Source: Melioribacteraceae bacterium
Lineage (GTDB): Bacteria; Bacteroidota; Ignavibacteria; Ignavibacteriales; Melioribacteraceae
Assembly (NCBI GenBank): GCA_022181065.1
Contig: BQMY01000121.1
Coordinates: forward strand, 1-64,000
Direction of reading: 5' to 3'
Length of the DNA: 64,000 nucleotides
In this document: positions 2,906 through 31,395 of the stretch, piece by piece
How the letters are laid out: each line of letters opens with the position of its first letter
How positions within the stretch are numbered: position 1 is the first letter of the stretch
Made by a program: the position numbers and the translations under genes
Notes under the pieces: generated by a model
Database searches by the model: none
The model's input: the letters and a program-made list of their open reading frames with translations, nothing else
What the model was told of the DNA's origin: nothing

Positions 2906-3805
2906 TTAAACTAATTTTGAATCCATTAGTCTGGTGATAAAATGCAGATCAAGTGCCGGGAGTGCGCCCGACTGTGATGCAATGTATGCAGCAACGGCAT
3001 TAGCAAATTTCAACCTATCAACTTCTTGAATATCATCGTTTAATTTTGAAAGATATGCTCCGAGAAACGCGTCACCGGCTCCAACGGTATCTTTAACTTG
3101 TAATTTGAAACCTTTGTGATGAAAGATATCGCCATTATAAAATGATAAAGCTCCTTTTTCACCTAATGTAAGAATAATCCTGTCCAGTGAAAATCGAGCT
3201 GCCAACAGTTCAAGTTTGAACGCCATATCACCATGTACATCGAACCAGGATGAGATTATTTCCAATTCATCATCATTTAATTTGAGAATGTCGGCTTTTT
3301 TTAATGAATCGTAAATTATTTCTTTTGAATAAAAAGGTTCCCTTAAATTTACATCAAAGATTTTTTTAGCCTGTGAGTCAAGTAACTTTCTAATACTTGT
3401 TCGTGATACATTATTTCGCTGTGCCAGCGAACCGAATACAACATAATCATCTCGAGTAATTTTTGACAAGTTGTTTTCATCAATTCTGATGTAATCCCAT
3501 GCCACCGGCTCCACAATATCATATTCAGGTTTTCCATAGTCACTTAATGTAATGTTTACCTTTCCTGTAATATGCTCCCCGTCACGCTGTATAAATTCGG
3601 GAGATAAAAACTCACTTTCCAGATTTTTAATGAGGTTATCACCATCCCAATCAACACCCACGCAGCTAATGAAATCAACTTCACAGCCCCATCTTTTCAG
3701 ATGAATCGCGACATTAAACGGAGCACCACCTGCAACGGTTGAATCAGGTAGCTTGTCCCATAATATTTCACCGATACATATAAATTTTGATTTATTTACT
3801 GTCAT
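2906..3805 (-). CDS. PfkB-family carbohydrate kinase, probably fructokinase
   Basis: A ribokinase/PfkB fold sugar kinase of 299 aa. The N-terminal sugar-binding part carries GEILWDKLPDSTVAGGAPFN, and the C-terminal PfkB signature DTVGAGDAFLGAYLSKL contains the catalytic base Asp and the anion-hole GAGD. It is the last gene of an operon with sucrose-phosphate synthase and sucrose synthase, so fructose is the expected substrate: sucrose synthase releases fructose, which this enzyme would phosphorylate to fructose 6-phosphate and return to the pathway. Its ATG overlaps the end of the sucrose synthase gene by 14 bases, and GGAG lies a few bases upstream. Substrate specificity rests mainly on context. 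Confidence 0.88.
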   Translation of the reverse strand: MTVNKSKFICIGEILWDKLPDSTVAGGAPFNVAIHLKRWGCEVDFISCVGVDWDGDNLIKNLESEFLSPEFIQRDGEHITGKVNITLSDYGKPEYDIVEPVAWDYIRIDENNLSKITRDDYVVFGSLAQRNNVSRTSIRKLLDSQAKKIFDVNLREPFYSKEIIYDSLKKADILKLNDDELEIISSWFDVHGDMAFKLELLAARFSLDRIILTLGEKGALSFYNGDIFHHKGFKLQVKDTVGAGDAFLGAYLSKLNDDIQEVDRLKFANAVAAYIASQSGALPALDLHFITRLMDSKLV

Positions 3806-19305: not shown

Positions 19306-20778
19306 ATGAAAAATCTGGTTGTCGTGAACAACCCTAAAGATTGGAATTTCCAGATCAACGAAGTGGAAATTGCATCGGCGAAAGAATATTTAACCGATAA
19401 AAAATATTTTGATATGCGAAACGTACGAATTTACAATTTGTGCCGAAGTTACAAGTACCAGTCCGCCGGTTATTACGTTTCATTGATAGCTGAAGCCAGA
19501 GGTCATAAATCCTTTCCTAACGTTGCGACTATTCAGGATTTGCGCAGTAATTCTTTGGTAAAAATAATTTCAGAGGATTTAGACCTGCAGATTCAGATCG
19601 ACCTGAAAAAGATCAAATCGAAAGAATTTACCCTCAGTATATATTTTGAACAGAATATCGCCAAACAGTATAAAAAACTGTCTAAACAACTTGCGAATCT
19701 GTTTCAGGCTCCTTTACTGCGGGCACAATTTATTTTTAACAAAAAATGGGTACTTCAATCAATCCGCCCCATTCCCGTTAATGAAATTACCGAATCACAC
19801 AAACCATATCTGGAAGATTTTGCCCGTACATATTTCGCTAAAAAAAGAATCTATAGCGCAAAGATTTCCAAGTATAAATATGAACTCGCTATACTTATTG
19901 ATCCGGCAGAAAAGGAACCTCCTTCCGATAAAATCGCGATAGAACATTTTATAAACGCCGCTGACAACCTCGATTTAAGAACTACATTAATTACCAGGGA
20001 TGATTTCAACCGACTTCCAGAATTCGACGCGCTTTTCATTCGCGAAACTACATCGGTAAATCATCATACTTATAAATTTTCAAGGCGTGCTTTTACAGAA
20101 GGTATTGTTGTTATTGACGATCCTGCATCAATTATAAAATGTACGAATAAAGTTTATCTCGCTGAACTCCTGACGAAATATAAAATACATACTCCTAAAA
20201 CCATGATAGTTCATAAAGAGAACCAAACAGTTCTCGAACAGGAACTTGGATTTCCTGTTGTATTAAAACAGCCCGACAGTTCTTTTTCACAAGGTGTCAT
20301 AAAAGTTGAAAGCAGAGAAGAACTTCAAAATAATCTAAAAATGATGCTGGATAGTTCTGATCTGGTTATAGCGCAGGAATATTTATACTCTGAATTCGAC
20401 TGGAGAATTGGCATCCTGGATAAAAAGCCGATTTATGCCTGCAAGTACTTTATGGCAAAGGATCACTGGCAAATATATAACTGGAAACAAAGCGGTAAGG
20501 ATAAAGAAGGTGAGTTTAAAACCTTCCCTGTTGATGTTGTGGATAGTGATATTGTAAAAACGGCAGTTAAAGCCGCTAACCTTATCGGGGACGGTCTTTA
20601 CGGTGTCGATTTGAAAAAAATTGATAATAAGGTGTATGTTATTGAAGTTAATGATAATCCGAGTATCACATCCGGTGTGGAAGACGCGATTCTTCAGCAG
20701 GACTTATACAGAATAATTATTGAATCATTTTATGAAAGACTTGAAAAGTCGCGCATGGTAAAAGAGGTGCAATTATGA
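19306..20778 (+). CDS. RimK-family ATP-grasp ligase with RLAN N-terminal domain
   Basis: A 490-aa amide or peptide ligase. The first 170 or so residues match the RLAN domain that precedes some RimK-like ATP-grasps (VNNPKDW, VRIYNLCRSYKYQSAGYYVSL, EARGHKSFP). The ATP-grasp part follows: a pre-ATP-grasp segment with ALFIRETTSVNHHTYKFSR, the phosphate loop region VVLKQPDSSFSQGVIKV, and the metal/ATP site GVDLKKIDNKVYVIEVNDNPSI. RimK-type ligases join an amino acid or peptide to a carboxylate with ATP. The gene follows the C39-like peptidase by 1 base and overlaps the next gene by 4 (ATGA), which argues for a shared pathway. The substrate is unknown. Confidence 0.85.
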   Translation: MKNLVVVNNPKDWNFQINEVEIASAKEYLTDKKYFDMRNVRIYNLCRSYKYQSAGYYVSLIAEARGHKSFPNVATIQDLRSNSLVKIISEDLDLQIQIDLKKIKSKEFTLSIYFEQNIAKQYKKLSKQLANLFQAPLLRAQFIFNKKWVLQSIRPIPVNEITESHKPYLEDFARTYFAKKRIYSAKISKYKYELAILIDPAEKEPPSDKIAIEHFINAADNLDLRTTLITRDDFNRLPEFDALFIRETTSVNHHTYKFSRRAFTEGIVVIDDPASIIKCTNKVYLAELLTKYKIHTPKTMIVHKENQTVLEQELGFPVVLKQPDSSFSQGVIKVESREELQNNLKMMLDSSDLVIAQEYLYSEFDWRIGILDKKPIYACKYFMAKDHWQIYNWKQSGKDKEGEFKTFPVDVVDSDIVKTAVKAANLIGDGLYGVDLKKIDNKVYVIEVNDNPSITSGVEDAILQQDLYRIIIESFYERLEKSRMVKEVQL

Positions 20779-22004
20779 GTGTTCTTCATATTTATGAAGG
20801 GTTCGGCATAGAGTTGGAATATATGATCGTTGATCGGGATACGCTAAAAGCTAAACCAATCAGTGATGAAATACTAAAAGTGGTTACCGGCGCTTACAAC
20901 TCGGATTATGATAATGGAAACATCTCCTGGTCAAATGAGCTCGTACTCCATGTTATTGAAATAAAAACCAACGGTCCAAGAAATAAACTATGCGGTTTGG
21001 AAAATGATTTTTTGATCAACATAAATGAAATTACGGAAATCCTGAAAAATTTTAACGCTAAACTCCTCCCTACCGGCGCACACCCGCTTTTTATTCCACG
21101 CGATGAGACTAAATTATGGCCTCATGAAAACAATCCCGTATATGACGCATACAACCGGATATTCAACTGTGACGGACATGGATGGTCGAATTTGCAGTCA
21201 ACCCATATAAATTTACCGTTCGCGAATGATGATGAATTTTACAGGTTACATACAGCAATTCGTTGTGTACTGCCGATAATTCCCGCTCTAACCGCAAGTA
21301 CACCGTTAATCGAAGGTAAAAACACCGGTATTATAGACACACGGCTTGATTTTTATAAGAACAATCAGAAAAAAATCCTGAGTCTTGCAGGTGATGTTAT
21401 CCCGGAATTGATCACTTCTAAGGGAGAATACCAAAATAAAATATTTAGTCGGATATTTGCCGATATCGAAAAATATGATACTGATGATATATTAAAAAAC
21501 GAGTGGTTGAATTCCCGTGGAGCAATCGCGAGATTCGACAGAAACGCTATAGAAATAAGAATAATAGACTTGCAGGAATCACCCATCGCGGATGTATCGT
21601 TGGCTGCACTAATTATTGAAGTTATACATTTAATTTCTGAAGATCCTCAGATGCTCGCCAGTGCCGCAACATTATCCCAGAAAGAGCTGGTCTCGATTTT
21701 AAACTCAACAATTAAATATGGTGAACAGGTAGTCATAACAAATGAGGATTATTTGTCATTATTTGAAATGAAATCCGAAATTAAAGCGGGTGAACTATGG
21801 GCAATCCTGTTAGAAAATATCGGACAGAATCCAATATTTATGTCAGAGGCTCAGCTCAAAACCGCCAAAGAAATAATAAAGCGGGGCACACTTTCCAGTC
21901 GTATTATTACTGCTATCAAAAATGATTACAGTATGCAAAATATAAAATCAGTTTATCAGCGGTTGTCAGCTTGCCTTTTGAATAACGAAATATTTCACCC
22001 TTAA
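20775..22004 (+). CDS. GCS2-type glutamate-cysteine ligase family protein
   Basis: A 409-aa member of the GCS2/carboxylate-amine ligase family (glutamine-synthetase-like fold). Supporting motifs: GIELEYMIVD near the N-terminus (metal Glu residues), NELVLHVIEIKTNGP, STHINLPF with a conserved His, and RNAIEIRIIDLQESP towards the C-terminus. Family members form gamma-glutamyl or other amide bonds with ATP; true gamma-glutamylcysteine synthesis is not implied. Translational coupling (ATGA) to the RLAN/RimK gene means two different amide ligases and a peptidase are made together. Its stop codon lies in the palindrome TTAACCGGTTAA at 22001-22012, which also holds the stop of the convergent ilvA gene. 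Confidence 0.82.
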   Translation: MSVLHIYEGFGIELEYMIVDRDTLKAKPISDEILKVVTGAYNSDYDNGNISWSNELVLHVIEIKTNGPRNKLCGLENDFLININEITEILKNFNAKLLPTGAHPLFIPRDETKLWPHENNPVYDAYNRIFNCDGHGWSNLQSTHINLPFANDDEFYRLHTAIRCVLPIIPALTASTPLIEGKNTGIIDTRLDFYKNNQKKILSLAGDVIPELITSKGEYQNKIFSRIFADIEKYDTDDILKNEWLNSRGAIARFDRNAIEIRIIDLQESPIADVSLAALIIEVIHLISEDPQMLASAATLSQKELVSILNSTIKYGEQVVITNEDYLSLFEMKSEIKAGELWAILLENIGQNPIFMSEAQLKTAKEIIKRGTLSSRIITAIKNDYSMQNIKSVYQRLSACLLNNEIFHP

Positions 22005-22008
22005 CCGG

Positions 22009-23289
22009 TTAAACAAGATATTGGAATAAATCCGGTTTGTTGTTCAGGTATTCGTACTTAAAGCCGGATTTTTTCATTCTATCAACGAGTGGTAGAAAAT
22101 CACTACTCTGTTTTAACTCTATTCCAACGAGTGCCGGACCTTTTTCCCTGTTATGTTTTTTGGAATACTCGAATAGAGTAATGTTGTCATCAGTACCAAG
22201 TACATCATTTACAAACTGCTTCAAAGCTCCTGCCCTTTGAGGGAATCGGATTATAAAATAATGTTTCAGACCTTCATAAAGCAGAGAACGTTCCTTTATT
22301 TCCTCAGTTCTTGTGATATCATTATTACTACCACTTACGATGCAGACCACATTTTTGTTTTTTATCTCTTCTTTATAAAAATCAAGCGCGGTTATCGATA
22401 ATGCTCCCGCAGGTTCTACAACAAGCGCGTCAAGATTATAAAGTTCAAGAATGGTCGTACAAATTTTTCCTTCGGGCACAGTAATAAAATCGTCGATATA
22501 TTGCCGGCACATCTCAAATGTTTTTTCACCCGGTTTTTGCACAGCAGCACCATCAACAAATTTGTCAATTTCATCCAGCTCAGTTACAGCATCATTTTTA
22601 ATTGAAAGCCCCATCGCTGCTGCCCCTTCGGGTTCAACACCGATAATTTTAACCTCAGGTGCAAGGTTTTTAATCGCTGATCCAACACCTGACGCTAGTC
22701 CTCCGCCACCTGTTGGGAGGAACACATAATCAGGTATCTCACTCATCTGTTGCAGTATTTCCAAACCGATCGTTCCCTGTCCCGATATTACCTTTTCATC
22801 ATCAAAGGGATGAATAAAACTTGCGTTATTTTCTTTGCAATACTCCATCGCAAAACTCGATGTATCGTCATATGTATCACCGAGCAACTCAATCTCGATG
22901 AAATCACCGCCAAAAAGTTTCACCTGATTGATTTTCTGCTGCGGGGTGGTTACAGGCATAAATATTTTACCTGTTATTTTTAGCAGACTACATGAGTAGG
23001 CTACGCCTTGTGCATGATTCCCGGCGCTGGCACACACAACACCTCTGGATATTTCTGCTTTGGATAACGAGCTGATTTTATTGTACGCCCCCCTGATTTT
23101 ATAGGAACGCACAATCTGCAAGTCTTCACGTTTCAGGAATATATTTGCGCTGTAACGTTTGGAAAGTAATTGATTTCGAAGAAGCGGGGTTGTATTTACA
23201 ACCCCGTTCAATTTTTCTTGCGCCAAAACTATATCAGAAATTTTATCACTTTTGTAATTAATATATTTGCTGCTGTATTGTTCAAACAT
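22009..23289 (-). CDS. ilvA: Threonine dehydratase (isoleucine biosynthesis)
   Basis: PLP enzyme that converts threonine to 2-oxobutanoate, the first step towards isoleucine. The PLP lysine is in VRSYKIRGAYN; the phosphate-binding glycine loop is PTGGGGLASGVG. After the catalytic domain comes a single ACT-like regulatory domain (about residues 335-426, HYFIIRFPQRAGALKQFV), shorter than the double domain of E. coli IlvA and as seen in Bacteroidota-type enzymes. The ATG at 23289 has AGGTG at good spacing and is preferred over the in-frame GTG at 23295. It is the last gene of the ilv operon, 13 bases after ilvC. Confidence 0.94.
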   Translation of the reverse strand: MFEQYSSKYINYKSDKISDIVLAQEKLNGVVNTTPLLRNQLLSKRYSANIFLKREDLQIVRSYKIRGAYNKISSLSKAEISRGVVCASAGNHAQGVAYSCSLLKITGKIFMPVTTPQQKINQVKLFGGDFIEIELLGDTYDDTSSFAMEYCKENNASFIHPFDDEKVISGQGTIGLEILQQMSEIPDYVFLPTGGGGLASGVGSAIKNLAPEVKIIGVEPEGAAAMGLSIKNDAVTELDEIDKFVDGAAVQKPGEKTFEMCRQYIDDFITVPEGKICTTILELYNLDALVVEPAGALSITALDFYKEEIKNKNVVCIVSGSNNDITRTEEIKERSLLYEGLKHYFIIRFPQRAGALKQFVNDVLGTDDNITLFEYSKKHNREKGPALVGIELKQSSDFLPLVDRMKKSGFKYEYLNNKPDLFQYLV

Positions 23290-23302
23290 AAGCACCTGTG
23301 AT

Positions 23303-24349
23303 TTATTGATTTTCAGGACGAAGTTTTCTTACCTGCGCGCCTGCCTGCCATAATTCCGAATCACGAATTTCTTTTAATTCTACTTCAAGCTTTTCACGAT
23401 AATCGGGTTTACTGTTTGCTTCTATAACAATTTCAGCTTCATTACCGCTTGCGACACTCTTGTACAAATCTTCAAATACAGGTGAAACAGCCTCTCTGAA
23501 TTTGTGTCGCCAATCGAGAGCACCTCGCTGCGCTGTAACTGATGTATTCGCGTACATCCAGTCCATTCCGTTTTCGGCGACTAAAGGCATTAAACTTTGT
23601 GTGAGTTCTTCTACTGTTTCATTAAACGCTTCGGAAGGTGAATGCCCGTTTTTTCTGAGAACATTATACTGTGCCTCAAAAACTCCGGCGAGAGCACCCA
23701 TCAGAATACCTCTCTCACCAGTAAGATCACTGAATACTTCCTTTTTGAAATCTGTTTCAAACAGATACCCTGACCCTACAGCCATTCCAAGCGCCTTAAC
23801 TCTTTCATGAGCCTTTCCTGTAGCGTCCTGGAAGACGGCATAGCTTGAATTAATTCCTTTACCCTGCACGAACATTCTTCTTAGTGAAGTTCCTGAACCC
23901 TTGGGCGCGACAAGAATAACATCCACATCGGCAGGTGGTACAATTCCGGTTTTATCCTTGTATGTGATTCCGAATCCATGTGAAAAGTACAATGCTTTAC
24001 CGGGGGTTAAATGTTTTTTAATGGTTTCCCACTGTGATATTTGCCCCGCGTCAGAAAGGAGGTATTGAACTATAGTTGCTTTTTCAGCGGCTTCTTCAAT
24101 TTCAAACAAAGTTTTTCCCGGTTCCCAGCCATCGGAAACAGCTTTATCCCACGTTTTGCTTCCTTTTCTCTGTCCTACAATCACATTAAAACCGTTATCC
24201 TTCATATTCAAAGATTGACCCGGCCCCTGAACTCCGTAGCCTATCACCGCTATCACTTCAGCTTTTAGTACTTCACGCGCTTTTTCGAGTGAAAATTCTT
24301 CACGTGTTACAACATTTTCTTCTACTCCGCCAAAATTTAGTTTCGCCAT
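23303..24349 (-). CDS. ilvC: Ketol-acid reductoisomerase
   Basis: 348-aa class I (short) ketol-acid reductoisomerase, acting second in Ile/Val synthesis. The N-terminal Rossmann domain has IAVIGYGVQGPGQ and the cofactor loop GQRKGSKTW, whose basic and Ser residues fit NADPH. The C-terminal knotted domain has the metal ligands in DLTGERGILMGALAG and VEELTQSLMPL. Its ATG overlaps the ilvN stop by one base (TAATG), so the two are coupled. Nothing unusual. Confidence 0.96.
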   Translation of the reverse strand: MAKLNFGGVEENVVTREEFSLEKAREVLKAEVIAVIGYGVQGPGQSLNMKDNGFNVIVGQRKGSKTWDKAVSDGWEPGKTLFEIEEAAEKATIVQYLLSDAGQISQWETIKKHLTPGKALYFSHGFGITYKDKTGIVPPADVDVILVAPKGSGTSLRRMFVQGKGINSSYAVFQDATGKAHERVKALGMAVGSGYLFETDFKKEVFSDLTGERGILMGALAGVFEAQYNVLRKNGHSPSEAFNETVEELTQSLMPLVAENGMDWMYANTSVTAQRGALDWRHKFREAVSPVFEDLYKSVASGNEAEIVIEANSKPDYREKLEVELKEIRDSELWQAGAQVRKLRPENQ

Positions 24350-24873
24350 TATACTTCCTCGTTATATTCAAGTTTTTCAAATTCATTTACTGTGTCTTTC
24401 ATTATAGCCACTCTCCCGGATCTCACAAACTCAACTATTCCGAACGGCTTTAATTTTTCAAATAATTCGGCTGTTTCTTCTTTATGTCCGGTTTTTTCGA
24501 TTATCAGATGATCTTTTTCGATTGTCAGCAATCTCGCGTTATTTTCTCTGATGATTGTTTCAATTCCCAATCCGTCCCTGATAGCGGAAACAGATAGTTT
24601 ATACAGCGCGATTTCCTGATATATCAACTCATCAGTTTTATGATAATGCGCTCTGATAACATCAACCTGTTTTTCAATTTGTTTTACAACTTTTTGTACC
24701 TGTTCCAATTCTTCCCGAATAACTATAGTATATCTGTGTATTCCTTCAACTTCAGATTGTGATGCTGTAATACTTTCTATATTGATATGTCTTCGAGTGA
24801 ATATGATCGTTACTCTATGAAGCATACCGATATGGTTTTCGGTAAAAATTGAAAGTGTATATTCCTGTTTCAT
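24349..24873 (-). CDS. ilvN: Acetolactate synthase small (regulatory) subunit
   Basis: 174-aa regulatory subunit of acetolactate synthase. The N-terminal ACT domain starts with YTLSIFTENHIGMLHRVTIIFTRR-like sequence, where the conserved Asn/His/Gly motif for valine binding is visible (TENHIGMLHR). A C-terminal ALS_ss domain follows (about 85-165, ending in FVRSGRVAIMKD). It controls feedback inhibition of the catalytic subunit encoded just upstream (9 bases away). Gene names ilvN and ilvH are both used for this subunit. Confidence 0.95.
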   Translation of the reverse strand: MKQEYTLSIFTENHIGMLHRVTIIFTRRHINIESITASQSEVEGIHRYTIVIREELEQVQKVVKQIEKQVDVIRAHYHKTDELIYQEIALYKLSVSAIRDGLGIETIIRENNARLLTIEKDHLIIEKTGHKEETAELFEKLKPFGIVEFVRSGRVAIMKDTVNEFEKLEYNEEV

Positions 24874-24882
24874 TTTAACTCC

Positions 24883-26655
24883 TTATGATAACCTTATTTC
24901 GGAAACAGAAGCACCTGTAGGTACCATCGGAAATACATTATCCTCCTGCTCAACCATTACTTCCAGAAAATATGGTCCTTCTGTACTTAACATCTCATCG
25001 ATGCTCGAATCCAGATGTTCTCGCTGATCTAAACGTCTGCCGGGAATACCAAATCCATCAGCGATCTTTACAAAATCGGGGTTGGTCATTTCCGTAAATG
25101 AATAGCGACTCTCAAAAAAGAGTTCCTGCCATTGCCGAACCATACCCAGAAATTGGTTATTTAACACAACTATTTTTATACCAATTTTGTATTGCGCTAT
25201 CGTTGCCAATTCCTGAATAGTCATCTGAAAACCACCGTCTCCAATAATGGCAAGAACAGACTTATCCGTACTGCCAATTTTTGCTCCCATGGATGCCGGC
25301 AGACAAAATCCCATAGTTCCCAAACCTCCGGAGGTTATGGACAACGATTTTCCCGAATGTTCAAAATATCTCGCCGTAACCATTTGATGTTGTCCTACAT
25401 CGGTAACAACAATTGTATCATCAGGAGTCTTTTCAGAAAGTTTTTTTACAACTTCTGCCATTCTCAATTTTCCGGCATCAGGTTTAATTTCTTTGGAAAT
25501 CACCTGATCAAACTCCTCATCATAAAGTGTGTTAAAAGATGAAAGCCATTTTTCATGATTTTTTTTATCAACAAAATTCACTAATGATGTTAACGCTTCT
25601 TTTGCGTCGGCATGTACCGCGACATCAGTTTTTACATTCTTGTCGATTTCGGCGTCATCAATTTCGATATGAATTATTTTTGCGTTGGTAGCATACCGCT
25701 TCAGATCACCGGTGACCCTGTCGTCAAAACGCATACCAATCGCGATAATTAAATCTGCCTCATTAGTAAGTTTGTTTGGCCCATAATTACCGTGCATACC
25801 CAACATTCCAACATTTAACGGATGAGTCGTTGGCAAGGAAGATATACCGAGCAAAGTCCATGCAGCCGGGATACCGGTTTTTTCGATGAATTTCCTGAAT
25901 TCGGTATCAGCTCCTGATAAGCTTACCCCCTGCCCGAAGAGTACCAGAGGTTTTTCGGATTTATTAATAAGTGTAGCGGCAGCTTTTACCTGTTCTATAT
26001 TCAATTTTGGTTTGGGTTGATAGCTTCTTATTTTTTTCGCGGACTGATAATAATAAACAAACTCACTAAACTGGGCATCTTTTGTAATATCAATAACAAC
26101 AGGCCCCGGTCTTCCCGATTTAGCAATGTAAAAAGCGTTTGCTATTGCTGTGGGAATTTCCTCGGCGTTTGTTACCTGATAATTCCACTTGGTAACTGGC
26201 ATTGAAATACCAACAACATCAGTCTCCTGAAACGCGTCTGTTCCCAACAGAAAAGATCCAACCTGCCCCGTAATACATACAAGCGGAGTAGAATCAATAA
26301 AGGCATCTGCAATACCGGTTATCAGATTAGTTGCTCCCGGACCCGAGGTAGCAAAACATACTCCCACCTTTCCTGATGCCCGCGCGTAGCCCTGAGCAGC
26401 GTGAACAGCTCCCTGCTCATGCCTTGTAAGTACATGATTTACTTTATCCCTGTAGTCATAAAGCGCGTCATAAACAGGCATAATAGCGCCGCCGGGATAC
26501 CCGAAAATTGTTTCCACTCCTTCCATAAGTAGCGATTTAATTATTGCTTCCGCTCCGGAAACCTTGGCGGGTTTATTTAGCTCCGGATTGAAATTATCCG
26601 GGAATGAGTATGTCCCTTTCAAATTTCCCGCGGATGAAAATTCAGATCCTTTCAC
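24883..26655 (-). CDS. ilvB: Acetolactate synthase large (catalytic) subunit
   Basis: 590-aa ThDP- and FAD-dependent enzyme joining pyruvate with pyruvate or 2-oxobutanoate. Visible are the catalytic Glu region (TRHEQGAVHAAQGYARASG), the FAD domain, and the ThDP/Mg motif GDGGFQMTIQELATIAQY...NNQFLGM. The start is GTG at 26655 with GGAG 7 bases upstream; about 30 residues precede the usual family N-terminus. It follows ilvD by 18 bases and precedes the regulatory subunit. Confidence 0.95.
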   Translation of the reverse strand: MKGSEFSSAGNLKGTYSFPDNFNPELNKPAKVSGAEAIIKSLLMEGVETIFGYPGGAIMPVYDALYDYRDKVNHVLTRHEQGAVHAAQGYARASGKVGVCFATSGPGATNLITGIADAFIDSTPLVCITGQVGSFLLGTDAFQETDVVGISMPVTKWNYQVTNAEEIPTAIANAFYIAKSGRPGPVVIDITKDAQFSEFVYYYQSAKKIRSYQPKPKLNIEQVKAAATLINKSEKPLVLFGQGVSLSGADTEFRKFIEKTGIPAAWTLLGISSLPTTHPLNVGMLGMHGNYGPNKLTNEADLIIAIGMRFDDRVTGDLKRYATNAKIIHIEIDDAEIDKNVKTDVAVHADAKEALTSLVNFVDKKNHEKWLSSFNTLYDEEFDQVISKEIKPDAGKLRMAEVVKKLSEKTPDDTIVVTDVGQHQMVTARYFEHSGKSLSITSGGLGTMGFCLPASMGAKIGSTDKSVLAIIGDGGFQMTIQELATIAQYKIGIKIVVLNNQFLGMVRQWQELFFESRYSFTEMTNPDFVKIADGFGIPGRRLDQREHLDSSIDEMLSTEGPYFLEVMVEQEDNVFPMVPTGASVSEIRLS

Positions 26656-26673
26656 GATAGAACTCCTTCCATT

Positions 26674-28341
26674 TTAAAGATCAGTCAAGCAGCCGTGAGA
26701 AGCGTCGGTCACACTTTTGGCGTACTTAAATAAATATCCGTTTTTAACACGTAAATCTGGTTTGCTCCATTCTGATTTTCTTTTTAACAGCTCTTTCTCA
26801 TCCACAAGGAGTTGAAGAACTTTATGTGTGGTATCAATTTTGATTTTGTCACCATCTTTAATTAATGCAATGGTTCCACCTTCCATCGCTTCCGGGGTAA
26901 TATGCCCCACAACAAAACCATGAGTTCCCCCTGAGAATCGACCGTCGGTAATTAGCGCAACATCTTTTCCCAATCCCGCGCCCATTATCGCCGATGTAGG
27001 TTTTAACATTTCCGGCATGCCGGGTCCACCTTTGGGTCCCTCATAACGAATCACTACCACATCACCCTTTTTAACTTTTCCTGCTGCGATGCCTTCATTA
27101 GCTTCAAATTCGCTGTTAAACACTACGGCTGTACCTTCGAAGTAATCTCCCTCTTTACCAGTTATTTTCGCTACAGAACCTTTTTCAGCAAGATTACCAT
27201 ACAATATTTGTATGTGTCCCGATTTTTTGATCGGATTTTCGATCGGAAAGACTACATCCTGACTTTTCCCGATCGGACGAATATCCTCGAGATTTTCTCC
27301 GAGTGTTTTGCCGGTTACGGTTAAACAATCACCATTCAACAATTTGTTTTTCAGTAAATATTTCATCAATGCGGGTACACCTCCAGAATTATGCAGGTCT
27401 TCCATCAAATATTTACCGGATGGTTTCAGGTCAGAGAGATATGGAGTTCTGTCACTGATTTCCTGAAAATCATCAAGTGTGAATTCTATTCCGCAGGTTT
27501 TTGTGATTGCCAGAAAATGTAAAACAGCATTGGTGCTGCCACCCAGAGCCATCACAAGAGTAAGCGCGTTTGTAACAGATTCACGCGTAATTATATCAAG
27601 TGGCTTTATATCTTTTTGAAGCAGATTATTTATCGCGGATGCGATATGTTTTGGTTCGAGCTTTTTAATATTGGATTGTGCCGGATTTGAGGAATTATAC
27701 GGGAGTGACATACCCATAGCTTCTATTGCCGACGCCATGGTGTTCGCGGTGTACATTCCTCCGCATGCACCTGGTCCTGGACAAGCCCTTTTTATCACAT
27801 TATTGTAATCATCCTCTGATATCTTCCCGGATACATGCTCCCCCCAAGCCTCGAATGCGGAAACAATATTAAGCTTCTCACCTTTATATTCTCCGGGTGA
27901 AATTGTACCCCCGTAAACCAAAATTGAGGGTCTGTTTAATCTTGCCATCGCCATGATAGCGCCCGGCATATTTTTATCACAACCGGTAATAGCAACCAAA
28001 CCATCGTAATAATGCGCGCTGCTGATTGTTTCGATAGAATCGGCTATAATTTCACGGCTCGGAAGCGAAAATCGCATCCCGAAAGTCCCCATTGAAATCC
28101 CGTCACTGACACCGATGGTGTTAAAACGCAAGCCTTTTAGTCCCTTCCTGTTTACTTCAGCTTTAATATCATCCGCTATCTCATTTAGATGCATATTACA
28201 CGGGTTGCCGTCATATCCCGTACTCGCTATACCAACTATACTTTTATCAAAATCTTGATCGTTGAACCCTGCACCATACAACATTGCCAGTGAAGCCGGG
28301 AGAGATTTATCATTTGTTAGAGTTTTGCTAAATTTTTTCAT
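26674..28341 (-). CDS. ilvD: Dihydroxy-acid dehydratase
   Basis: 555-aa iron-sulphur dehydratase, third common step of Ile/Val synthesis. The cluster cysteines are in [27 protein letters not shown] and [20 protein letters not shown]; the C-terminal domain carries the usual [15 protein letters not shown] and [15 protein letters not shown]. Length and motifs are standard. It lies 6 bases after ilvE and 18 before ilvB in the ilv operon. Confidence 0.96.
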
Positions 28342-28347
28342 TGTTTT

Positions 28348-29238
28348 TTACATCGCCCTTTTTGACTGATCAAATTTGTTCCTTACAATTAGCTCATATT
28401 GTTCTTTAAGCATTTTGCCTATTGAATTTTCCCATTTTATCGGAAAGGTATATTCATCCATTGATTCCATACCCACAACCTCTGCCGCGGTACCAGTAAA
28501 AAACGCGGAATCAGCGGATTTTAATTCTGCTGGAGTAATATCTTTTTCTACAACCTCAATTTGATTTGAAAGCGCCAATTCAATTATTACAGAGCGGGTA
28601 ATTCCGGGAAGAATATGTCCTTTTTGCGGAGTGAATAATTTGCCATCTTTTTCAACAAACACATTCGCGCCTGGTCCCTCTGCAACATTGCCGTTCATAT
28701 CCAGCAGCAACGCTTCATCGTAACCTCTGCTTTTTGCTTCATTTACAGCAAGAATCGAGTTTATGTAATGTCCCGCTATTTTAGCGTCAACAAAACTGGA
28801 ATTCGGATTGGGTCTTTGAAACGGTGATAAAGTTACTCTCAGAAGTTTTTCACCAAGATAAGGTGGCCACTCCCAGGCACATATAAACAGATTCACCTCG
28901 TCACTCGATTTGAGGCTCATGTCAACGCCTGTATAAACCAGGGGTCTGATATACGCGTCAGTGAATCTGTTCATTTCCAGTAATTCATAGGTGGCATCCA
29001 ACATCTCTTCAGGAGATAAATTAAGTTTCAGACTCATCTTATCGGCTGAATATTTAAGTCGTTGGAAGTGTTCGAGTCCCATGAAAATCTTCGCGCCATT
29101 TTCAGTTGAGTACGATTTGATACCTTCAAACACAGCATTACCATAGTGTAACGATTGCGAGTAGAGGTTAACCGAGCAATCTCTTGCATTTAGAAAACCC
29201 CCGTTGAGAAAGACAATACTTTTTTCAGTGAAATACAT
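28348..29238 (-). CDS. ilvE: Branched-chain amino acid aminotransferase
   Basis: Class IV PLP aminotransferase that makes Ile, Val and Leu from their keto acids. The PLP lysine is in VDAKIAGHYINSIL, followed by GYDEALLLDMNGNVAEGPGANVF, a class signature. The open frame extends to 29274, but the ATG at 29238 has GGAG five bases upstream, and the longer start would begin inside the terminator stem of the second attenuator; I take 29238 (296 aa). It is the first structural gene of ilvE-D-B-N-C-A and so lies directly under control of the tandem attenuators at 29256-29504. Confidence 0.95.
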   Translation of the reverse strand: MYFTEKSIVFLNGGFLNARDCSVNLYSQSLHYGNAVFEGIKSYSTENGAKIFMGLEHFQRLKYSADKMSLKLNLSPEEMLDATYELLEMNRFTDAYIRPLVYTGVDMSLKSSDEVNLFICAWEWPPYLGEKLLRVTLSPFQRPNPNSSFVDAKIAGHYINSILAVNEAKSRGYDEALLLDMNGNVAEGPGANVFVEKDGKLFTPQKGHILPGITRSVIIELALSNQIEVVEKDITPAELKSADSAFFTGTAAEVVGMESMDEYTFPIKWENSIGKMLKEQYELIVRNKFDQSKRAM

Positions 29239-29255: not shown

Positions 29256-29291
29256 AAAAAAAAAGCCCTTCCACATTTGGTGAAAGAGCTT
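29256..29291 (-). terminator. Attenuator 2 terminator before ilvE
   Basis: On the minus strand a 12-base-pair stem (arms at 29280-29291 and 29263-29274, two G-U pairs, 5-base loop) is followed by nine U (29256-29264). This is a strong Rho-independent terminator 18 bases before ilvE. Its 5' arm (29280-29290) can pair instead with 29317-29327, an 11-base match with one mismatch and one G-U, which overlaps the stop codon of the second leader. That alternative pairing would prevent termination. Confidence 0.9.
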
Positions 29292-29323
29292 TATAATTTT
29301 CTTTAATTTTATTTACAGCACTC

Positions 29324-29395
29324 TCACCCGTCGATTATTCCAATAATGACGATAATAATAATGCTGATAATTATATGTGAATTCGTTTTATACAT
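29324..29395 (-). CDS. Ile-rich leader peptide 2 of the ilv operon
   Basis: A 23-codon open frame on the minus strand, too short for usual gene finders. It begins MYKTNSH and then has 11 Ile codons within residues 8-21, with one Val, one Ser and one Gly among them, and no Leu. The stop (29324-29326) lies in the 5' arm of the antiterminator of the second terminator. This is the expected geometry of a ribosome-mediated attenuator: stalling at Ile codons leaves the antiterminator free. The ATG begins just after the U tract of terminator 1 and has no Shine-Dalgarno. Its core matches leader 1 nearly codon for codon. Confidence 0.85.
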   Translation of the reverse strand: MYKTNSHIIISIIIIVIIGIIDG

Positions 29396-29398
29396 AAT

Positions 29399-29426
29399 AA
29401 AAAAGCCATCCCAATTGGAATGGCTT
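29399..29426 (-). terminator. Attenuator 1 terminator
   Basis: A 10-base-pair stem (29417-29426 with 29403-29412, one G-U pair, loop AATT) followed by six U on the minus strand. The 7-base sequence at 29440-29446, four bases beyond the stop of leader 1, is perfectly complementary to part of the terminator's 5' arm (29417-29423) and would form the antiterminator. Confidence 0.9.
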
Positions 29427-29450
29427 ATAAAAATCTATACCATTCCCGGG

Positions 29451-29504
29451 TCATCCGATAATGACAATAATAATAATGATAATATTTATAATCGTGTTTT
29501 TCAT
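29451..29504 (-). CDS. Ile-rich leader peptide 1 of the ilv operon
   Basis: A 17-codon open frame on the minus strand reading MKNTIINIIIIIIVIIG: ten Ile codons (ATT, ATC and one ATA), one Val, no Leu. It is followed by the antiterminator and terminator described for attenuator 1. The codons IIIIVIIG are shared with leader 2, and the DNA of the two cores differs at only a few positions plus one inserted codon, which points to duplication of an attenuator unit. No clear Shine-Dalgarno is seen; start sites lacking one occur elsewhere in this window. By analogy with the ilvGMEDA leader of E. coli it senses charged tRNA-Ile, but here the bias is to Ile alone. Confidence 0.87.
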   Translation of the reverse strand: MKNTIINIIIIIIVIIG

Positions 29505-29518
29505 ATTTATTGAATGTG

Positions 29519-29547
29519 AAAATATTACACTAAGGTTGTCCAGTCAA
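29519..29547 (-). promoter_or_regulatory. Probable promoter of the ilv operon
   Basis: On the minus strand TTGACT (29542-29547) and TATTTT (29519-29524) are 17 bases apart, ending about 15 bases upstream of the ATG of leader 1. The same TTGACT box occurs in the prkA promoter at 48360-48365. It implies a very short 5' leader before the first peptide. Confidence 0.6.
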
Positions 29548-29628: not shown

Positions 29629-29657
29629 TTGTTATTACAAATAATTAAATATAATTT
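29629..29657 (+). promoter_or_regulatory. Possible promoter of the Omp28/T9SS gene
   Basis: TTGTTA (29629-29634), a 17-base spacer and TAATTT (29652-29657) lie about 40 bases upstream of the ATG at 29698. The surrounding DNA is very AT-rich, so chance matches are likely. Confidence 0.35.
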
Positions 29658-29697
29658 TTATAGATACTTTAATAATAATATCTTTTTACGAGGTCAC

Positions 29698-31395
29698 ATG
29701 AAAATATTTTACATAATAATGCTTGTAACTTCAATACTGTTTTCGCAGGATAATAGATCATTCAGAACAGATGACATTACTCCATATCCTGATCAGTCTG
29801 TCACATCCGGAATTCAATATCAATATCTCGGAATCACAAAATCCCCTCTAAGTAAAGTAGTTCGCAAAGTTTTACTCGAGGAAGGAACAAATACATCATG
29901 TGGATATTGCGCGCAATACAACCCGGGAATCAAACAATTTATGGATCAACATCCCGATTCGCTGGTCAATGTAACTTATCATGTTTATTGGCCCGGAAAT
30001 AATGACCCGATGTATCAGGCAAACACTACTCAAATTGCACAACGAATAAACTATATCGGAATTAATGCGGTTCCAAGAGTTGATATCGATGGAATTGTTA
30101 AAGATGTATGGCCATTAACACCCTCGGGGTTGAACAATGTTTTCAACCAACGACAAGACGCGCTCACAAATCTTGATATAAGTGTTGTAGATGAAATGAT
30201 TGGTGAAGATTCAATCCGCGCTACAATTACCGTTGATATTCTGGAAGAGCTGCCGACAGGTAATTATAAATTGCGCGTTTATTCGCTTGACCGTAAAATT
30301 GTCTATCCATATGCGCCGGGCAATAACGGTGAAAAAGAGTTTGAATATGTATTCAGAAGAGGATATCCCGATATGTCAGGTACATCAATTCCTCTTACGG
30401 TTGGCACCCATGAATATACCATTACTTATGAAAGGGAAGAAATCTGGGGTTCTGGTTTGATATATACAATTGCTTTTGTCCAGAATGATAACAATAAAGA
30501 GATCCTGAATGCGGATATGAGTAATTTTTATTATTTGCCACAGTCAGCTCCATTGGCCTCACCTCAAAACAATAAAGTTACAGAGTCATCATCGGTTATC
30601 TTAAGCTGGAATGAAGCTGTAAATGCTGACAAATATAGACTTGAGTTATCAGAATCAGAGAATTTCACAGAATATTACCACTATTCAAATTTACTTTCTG
30701 AAACTACTTATAATCTCGGTGAGCTTGGTGAATCAAAAAAACTATACTGGCGCGTAAAAGCATTCAGTGATTCAGATTCAGCGCTTTATTCAGAAGTCTG
30801 GAATTTCGCCACACCACTCAATAAACCTTATAATCTCGATGGTGAACACCTGACAGATAAAATAAGTCTGAATTGGAACGATTTTTCTGAATACGAAACC
30901 GGCTTTGTAATTGAGCGCGCGATTACTCAGGGAATTGGTATAATGTTTCGTGAACTCGATACGGTTAACTCTAATATTACAACTTATGATGATAACGATA
31001 TTTCAGCCACCGGATTTTACTATTATCGGATTAAAGCAATCAGTGATGTTTCACACTCAGCTTATAGCGATAGCGTGATGTATGATTTGAAGGTTGGTGT
31101 TGAAGAAGTTGATCTTGCGGAATTGACGTTTACTCTGGATCAAAATTTCCCGAATCCGTTTAACCCTGTAACTAATATTAGTTTTACAATCCCGGTAGAA
31201 CGAAACAATAAAGAAGCTTCATTAATTATCTATGACATGTTGGGTAAAGAAGTTGAAGTATTACATCAAGGAGAATTAACTTCAGGCAAACATCAGATAC
31301 AGTTTACTCCCGAAAACTTAACGAGTGGAATTTATTTTTATAACCTGGTATCAGGCGAATATTCACTTACTAAAAAGTTAGTTTACCTTAAATAG
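29698..31395 (+). CDS. Omp28-related secreted protein with T9SS sorting domain
   Basis: A 565-aa exported protein. The ATG at 29698 has GAGGT at good spacing and gives a normal signal peptide (cleavage near ILFSQ); the frame extends upstream to 29629 without support. After the signal comes an Omp28-related, thioredoxin-like region with EEGTNTSCGYCAQYNPGI, including a CxxC pair, followed by beta modules, an Fn3-like domain (about 280-370) and a second one. The last 85 residues are a type A T9SS sorting domain: LDQNFPNPFNPVTNISFTIP at its start and TSGIYFYNLVSGEYSLTKKL near the end. It would be exported across the outer membrane and attached or released. Function unknown; the CxxC suggests a redox or folding role. 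Confidence 0.88.
   Translation: MKIFYIIMLVTSILFSQDNRSFRTDDITPYPDQSVTSGIQYQYLGITKSPLSKVVRKVLLEEGTNTSCGYCAQYNPGIKQFMDQHPDSLVNVTYHVYWPGNNDPMYQANTTQIAQRINYIGINAVPRVDIDGIVKDVWPLTPSGLNNVFNQRQDALTNLDISVVDEMIGEDSIRATITVDILEELPTGNYKLRVYSLDRKIVYPYAPGNNGEKEFEYVFRRGYPDMSGTSIPLTVGTHEYTITYEREEIWGSGLIYTIAFVQNDNNKEILNADMSNFYYLPQSAPLASPQNNKVTESSSVILSWNEAVNADKYRLELSESENFTEYYHYSNLLSETTYNLGELGESKKLYWRVKAFSDSDSALYSEVWNFATPLNKPYNLDGEHLTDKISLNWNDFSEYETGFVIERAITQGIGIMFRELDTVNSNITTYDDNDISATGFYYYRIKAISDVSHSAYSDSVMYDLKVGVEEVDLAELTFTLDQNFPNPFNPVTNISFTIPVERNNKEASLIIYDMLGKEVEVLHQGELTSGKHQIQFTPENLTSGIYFYNLVSGEYSLTKKLVYLK

Follow-up and report, generated by a model that had tools for sequence, protein, structure and literature searches.

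Two predicted isoleucine-sensing attenuators in series before the ilvEDBNCA operon of a Melioribacteraceae bacterium, and recurrence of the layout in Bacteroidota

INTRODUCTION

Control of ilv operons by leader-peptide attenuation is textbook knowledge, and enterobacteria carry single attenuators of this kind, ilvL before ilvGMEDA and ivbL before ilvBN. Corynebacterium ilvBNC is likewise preceded by a single leader-peptide attenuator (PMC11857589), the same type of control has been predicted for ilv operons of Actinobacteria (PMC1262725), and leader-peptide attenuation has been inferred 5′ of amino-acid operons in F. psychrophilum (PMC9723704). Tandem attenuators are represented by Salmonella mgtCBR, presented as ‘a singular example’, the leader of which senses ATP and proline and is contrasted in the same paper with that of metE, which has two terminator sites (PMC3641672). 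For tandem riboswitches and T-boxes (metE, glycine and the trpE T-box), more regulatory capacity or more digital control has been proposed (PMC4342826, PMC2864571).

In the present study we analysed the window, a 64,000-nt stretch of DNA from a Melioribacteraceae bacterium. Judging from its sequence, the 5′ leader of the ilvEDBNCA operon in the window very probably consists of two complete ribosome-mediated attenuators acting in series, both sensing charged tRNA-Ile. No description of a tandem ilv attenuator, or of any tandem leader-peptide attenuator for one amino acid, was found in open-access main texts or Rfam. The preliminary description of the locus, which knew of no tandem ilv attenuator, thus holds for the open-access literature; the arrangement is not unique, however, as it recurs in Bacteroidota.

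EXPERIMENTAL

A unit was scored as an ORF with at least six Ile, Leu or Val codons in an eight-codon stretch plus an intrinsic terminator no more than 90 nt further on. The survey covered the 700 nt 5′ of the first gene (ilvE or ilvD) at 185 Bacteroidota-type ilvD loci from GTDB genomes, and the ranking of 113 leaders by Ile fraction used the detector with ATG starts. A leader DNA search of 58 relatives returned, apart from one genome (G002), short low-complexity matches only, and relatives were therefore located through ilvD. Switch behaviour was computed, as equilibrium energies, with a per-codon ribosome model having a footprint to +13, in which, at each position, the free RNA 3′ of the ribosome was folded in two states, with the terminator 3′ arm still untranscribed and with it present. 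Four switches were modelled, the two window units and the two units of the related genome IGN16.

RESULTS AND DISCUSSION

Organization of the operon and its leader

The gene order ilvE-D-B-N-C-A was confirmed with NCBIfam models (Table 1). The operon makes Ile and Val, and the gene beyond its ilvA end is convergent. Both leader units sit between a divergent gene at 29629 and ilvE (ATG 29238), and no same-strand gene that terminator 1 could serve was found upstream. The divergent gene (29629–31395, plus strand), the start of which is separated by approximately 125 bases from that of LP1 on the opposite strand, has a probably secreted product whose C-terminus is of the sorting type (NFPNPFNPVTNISFTIP...KLVYLK). 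The plus-strand region 19306–22004 is a two-gene unit, in which the gene for a RimK/LysX-like ATP-grasp ligase comes first and that for a remote glutamate-cysteine-ligase-like protein second; the two products score far below curated model cut-offs and form a possible peptide or glutathione-like ligase pair.

Table 1 Features of the ilv operon and its leader in the window
Feature	Position	Strand	Details
Probable promoter 5′ of LP1	29547-29519	minus	TTGACT-17-TATTTT, consensus scan only
Leader peptide ORF 1 (LP1)	29504-29451	minus	MKNTIINIIIIIIVIIG, then stop; ATG 29504; 17 codons
Antiterminator arm 1	29446-29440	minus	GGAATGG; partner CCATTCC of terminator 1
Intrinsic terminator 1	29426-29403	minus	AAGCCATTCCAATTGGGATGGCTT + T tract
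Leader peptide ORF 2 (LP2)	29395-29324	minus	MYKTNSHIIISIIIIVIIGIIDG, then stop; ATG 29395; 23 codons
Antiterminator arm 2	29328-29317	minus	GGTGAGAGTGCT; includes LP2 stop codon
Intrinsic terminator 2	29292-29262	minus	AAAGCTCTTTCACCAAATGTGGAAGGGCTTT + T tract
ilvE, branched-chain aminotransferase	28348..29238	minus	First gene; NF005146 and TIGR01122 above cut-off
ilvD, dihydroxy-acid dehydratase	26674..28341	minus	TIGR00110 above cut-off
ilvB, acetolactate synthase large subunit	24883..26655	minus	TIGR00118 above cut-off
ilvN, acetolactate synthase small subunit	24349..24873	minus	TIGR00119 above cut-off
ilvC, ketol-acid reductoisomerase	23303..24349	minus	TIGR00465 above cut-off
ilvA, threonine ammonia-lyase (Ile branch)	22009..23295	minus	Last gene; TIGR02079 and NF006390 above cut-off

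Direct reading gave 10 Ile codons in LP1 and 11 in LP2, with one Val and no Leu codon in each, Ile making up 10/11 and 11/12 of their Ile, Leu and Val codons respectively. These counts, the lengths of the leaders and the positions of arms and terminators agree with the preliminary description. The stem of terminator 1 has a folding energy of −14.5 kcal/mol (z −4.2) and its duplex with arm 1 one of −13.4 kcal/mol; the corresponding values for unit 2 are −16.1 kcal/mol (z −5.3) for the stem and −17.5 kcal/mol for the duplex between arm 2 and the terminator 5′ arm. Neither duplex was matched by any of 100 shuffles. The candidate promoter of unit 1 is a moderate match (9/12 consensus positions).

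A consensus terminator scan of the 501-nt leader region returned exactly these two terminators (shuffle expectation 0.1). The unit detector recovered both units and yielded none in 300 dinucleotide shuffles of the region; applied to both strands of the whole window, it returned the two units and one implausible long ORF. A second leader match in the same genome (C77) falls where an unrelated long ORF begins and was rejected, being no attenuator. No leader family of Rfam matched the window leader or the loci of 13 relatives at gathering score. Thr_leader (RF00506) scored 28.8 bits over unit 2, far under its gathering score of 55, and unit 2 is thus not a member. Elsewhere in the 13 relatives' loci SAM-II and Flavo-1 were matched; a SAM-II riboswitch (64 bits) lies at 3392–3333 of the Gaetbulibacter locus (L096), on the opposite strand near the tandem ilv leader region.

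Switch behaviour of the modelled units

In all four modelled switches, a ribosome placed in the Ile run left the terminator 5′ arm paired upstream (approximately −10 to −21 kcal/mol), and this pairing was lost with the ribosome at the stop codon. For unit 1, the 5′ arm was paired upstream through codon 16 (nine pairs, −12 to −17 kcal/mol), the folding energy was −3.7 at codon 17, and at the LP1 stop, where the ribosome masks antiterminator arm 1, upstream pairing was absent. For unit 2, the arm was paired through codon 19 (11–16 pairs, −15 to −21 kcal/mol) and the pairing had nearly gone from codon 21 to the stop (−0.1 to −1.3). Measured from the end of the branched-chain amino acid codon run, the switch point of both IGN16 units was the same as in the window. 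Folding of the leaders thus gave alternative terminator and antiterminator structures with the right switch point. When the full leader was folded at equilibrium, the terminator was preferred at most ribosome positions (P 0.5–0.96), so that antitermination would have to rest on the order of folding, antiterminator first, as it does in known attenuators.

Age of the pair

Within the family of the window genome, ilvD was scored in 40 of 79 genomes, mostly at 43–49% identity with that of the window, and an ilvD of the same type (69% identical) was found only in G002, ‘Ignavibacteriae bacterium IGN16’ (contig JABFGH010000007.1, locus L033). This genome also has two leaders, MKTIKNILVLIISIIIIQ and MKNFSLINIILLIIVIIIPGYWE, directly before the ilvD of an operon ilvD-B-N-C-A (genes named by likeness to those of the window). 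MKTIKNILVLIISIIIIQ is the counterpart of LP1, and the stem of terminator 1 is near-identical in the two genomes (GCCATTCC..GAATGGC in IGN16). The LP1 unit of the window scored 41 in alignment with that of IGN16 and 32 with the LP2 unit of the window, and the two LP1 units are each other's best match; the window pair is therefore not a recent copy, and the ‘duplicated unit’ of the preliminary description stands in the broad sense only. The two leader cores, described as nearly identical, are indeed alike; they are largely ATT/ATC runs, however, so that this resemblance argues only weakly for duplication. Similarity does not settle orthology for the second units. The simple duplex test failed for the unit 2 arm of IGN16 (85 of 100 shuffles were as good), and a full fold with loop pairing recovered it. 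Since the pair precedes ilvD in IGN16 and ilvE in the window, it has been kept despite a different adjoining gene, and comparison of the two loci suggests that the tandem pair probably predates both genomes, the adjoining gene having changed meanwhile.

The ilv operon of the window (22009–29238) is of the Bacteroidota/flavobacterial type, with an ilvD approximately 67% identical. Within the family only the window genome and IGN16 carry an operon of this type, the ilvD of other members being approximately 45% identical, which suggests horizontal acquisition or differential retention. In an ilvD tree the window sequence is on a long branch (0.58), and its branching place is not fixed by the tree.

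Recurrence of units and pairs in Bacteroidota

In the survey a unit was present in 100 of the 185 loci, compared with none of 555 dinucleotide shuffles and one of 185 reverse strands. A single unit was detected in 86 of the 100, a count that may hide missed second units, and two in 14. These were the window, IGN16, Lutibacter (L068), Tenacibaculum caenipelagi (L070), Myroides (L073), Aquimarina (L093), Gaetbulibacter (L096), two Chryseobacterium loci (L116 and L138), and G292 (L243), G387 (L172), G179 (L229), G176 (L197) and G337 (L231). At the level of sequence, the single unit is thus ordinary in Bacteroidota and its serial use for one amino acid a recurrent variant.

For 98 of 114 units, the segment separating leader from terminator formed a duplex with the terminator 5′ arm that surpassed 95% of shuffles. 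The arm pairs are CCATTCC/GGAATGG in the window, CTGTATC/GATACAG and CTTCC/GGAAG in flavobacteria, and CCGTTTC/GAAACGG in Chryseobacterium; this difference across lineages is covariation, the three segments of the predicted switch changing together. Comparison with related genomes thus favours the attenuator reading of the preliminary description on both counts, with a recurring tandem layout and covarying arms.

Some pairs are old, as unit-1-like and unit-2-like terminators are common to several genera, and distinct unit-1 and unit-2 terminators recur in Tenacibaculum, Lutibacter, Gaetbulibacter and two further genomes. Others are recent copies, the two Ile units of G337 being 96% identical and the Aquimarina units 80%. 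G337, which we name Flavobacterium because its genus code is common with Flavobacterium-like loci, has three units in a row before ilvE if the first may begin with TTG; read on the reverse complement of L231, the series opens with a unit of the kind usual in Flavobacterium, and the two behind it are Ile-only and almost identical to each other. Reading of the Myroides locus also gave a third unit, MYNSIIISSIIFTGVVSQSEGE; the final copy there runs across N at a scaffold gap and could be an artefact of assembly. At this locus (Myroides sp. 1354, L073, 2500–3110) the attenuator repeat stands on both sides of 100 N. The break in this assembly falls within the repeated leader, so that counts of units from draft genomes may be wrong.

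On the ilvD tree the tandem state is scattered, with at least seven label changes, which points to repeated gain or loss. The tandem loci were no more clustered on this tree than shuffled labels, and what the tree gives is this lower bound on label changes, not a number of tandem origins.

Serial layout and proposed mechanism

The stem of terminator 1 is 7 nt from the start of LP2 in the window, and in all tandem pairs LP2 starts 7–33 nt past that stem. Shortly before unit 1, several tandem relatives have a TTG-N19-21-TAnnTTTG-like promoter match, which is perfect (9/9) in three Chryseobacterium-type loci; 5′ of unit 2 no promoter match beat shuffles in any tandem locus. As laid out, two complete units are on one predicted transcript, with Ile-rich leader ORFs, terminators, mutually exclusive antiterminators and a layout conserved in relatives. 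The folds, the complementarity of the arms, the recurrence and the inter-unit gap, too short to hold a promoter, agree with the preliminary claim of two Ile-sensing attenuators in series.

In the proposed mechanism, when Ile-tRNA is plentiful the ribosome would reach the leader stop codon and cover the antiterminator arm, so that the terminator would form and RNA polymerase stop. When Ile-tRNA is short, the ribosome would stall in the Ile run, the antiterminator would form and polymerase continue. Leader 2 would be transcribed only once polymerase is past terminator 1, and read-through into the operon would thus approximate the product of two read-through probabilities. The expected benefit over one attenuator would be a lower leak and a steeper and wider response to Ile starvation.

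A different reading is that one unit regulates, probably that nearest ilvE, its partner being a copy that is neutral or in decay. Most relatives have one detected unit (86 of 100), and the scatter over the ilvD tree implies unit loss; both window units, however, retain a start codon, an Ile run, an antiterminator arm, a strong terminator and the switch point, IGN16 keeps both, and the distinct unit-1 and unit-2 terminators recur in the five other genomes mentioned above. We consider regulation by one unit unlikely. The two attenuators might instead report different signals, as tandem attenuators do in mgtCBR (PMC3641672), and in some Bacteroidota pairs the two units are unequal in Leu and Val. 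With both window leaders being Ile runs, by the codon shares given above, a division of signals is very unlikely at this locus. Separate promoters could drive the two leaders, placing the attenuators in parallel on two transcripts, and a weak sigma-70-like match does occur inside LP2 (29381–29352). A transcript from this match would start inside LP2 and lose its start codon, and the 7-nt gap and the failure of any match 5′ of LP2 to beat shuffles in the tandem loci make parallel transcripts slightly less credible still. Chance formation of Ile-rich ORFs and hairpins in AT-rich DNA, in which ATT and ATA are Ile codons, is refuted for this AT-rich region by the shuffles of the region (0/300) and of homologous regions (0/555) and by the repetition of the layout in relatives. 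Serial attenuation by both units is thus the reading that we prefer.

Serial attenuators for the same amino acid make a test prediction, namely that steepness and dynamic range grow with unit number. Bacteroidota hold natural sets of one, two and three units, near-identical recent copies included, so that this prediction is directly testable; engineered serial attenuators have been reported to give a better dynamic range (PMC3753616).

Exploratory link to leucine synthesis

Model TIGR00973, which found leuA in 14 of 14 control genomes, gave no leuA in the window genome (4.9 Mb, 164 contigs, completeness 100), and for leuC only aconitase-like partial matches were obtained there. Among 136 ilvD-bearing genomes of known quality, leuA was missing only in the window genome and G337, which are probable leucine auxotrophs with Ile/Val synthesis retained. 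Both of these high-quality genomes have multiple units, and their leaders have the four highest Ile fractions of the 113 ranked (1.00, 1.00, 0.92 and 0.91; median 0.57). Six of a further 46 genomes were without leuA, several being metagenome bins that are possibly incomplete; Myroides, for which the absence had been expected from its Ile-rich leader, was among them. In an association noticed post hoc and, with n=6, a lead only, Ile fraction was higher without leuA (medians 0.81 compared with 0.55; 6 and 96 loci; one-sided Mann–Whitney p 0.003), and tandem units were commoner (3/6 compared with 12/96 loci; p 0.04). Leu fraction did not differ by leuA status among the scored loci (p 0.45). As a tentative proposal, Bacteroidota may tune the leak and steepness of Ile-responsive ilv expression by gain and loss of whole serial cassettes (one, two or, in one case, three), with leader codons that reflect pathway content and with genomes that have lost leucine synthesis carrying multiplied, Ile-pure units.

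Comparison with known systems

The leaders described here add Bacteroidota ilv leaders, which are without an Rfam family, to the map of ribosome-mediated attenuation. They resemble the ilv leaders of enterobacteria and Corynebacterium in having a leader rich in branched-chain amino acid codons and exclusive antiterminator and terminator structures before ilv genes. Whereas those leaders have one unit with mixed Ile, Val and Leu codons, the window has two that are almost purely Ile; the phyla differ, and no sequence similarity is claimed. In its order of leader, antiterminator and terminator, unit 2 is like Thr_leader of Rfam. The main text of the F. psychrophilum study mentions neither tandem units nor ilv (PMC9723704). 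The window shares with mgtCBR two short ORFs in one leader as serial attenuators; mgtCBR responds to two different signals, whereas both window leaders are Ile-rich and are each followed by an intrinsic terminator of their own. Tandem riboswitches and T-boxes similarly place repeated sensor units in series but rely on binding of a ligand or tRNA by the RNA, whereas the window units would sense through the translating ribosome.
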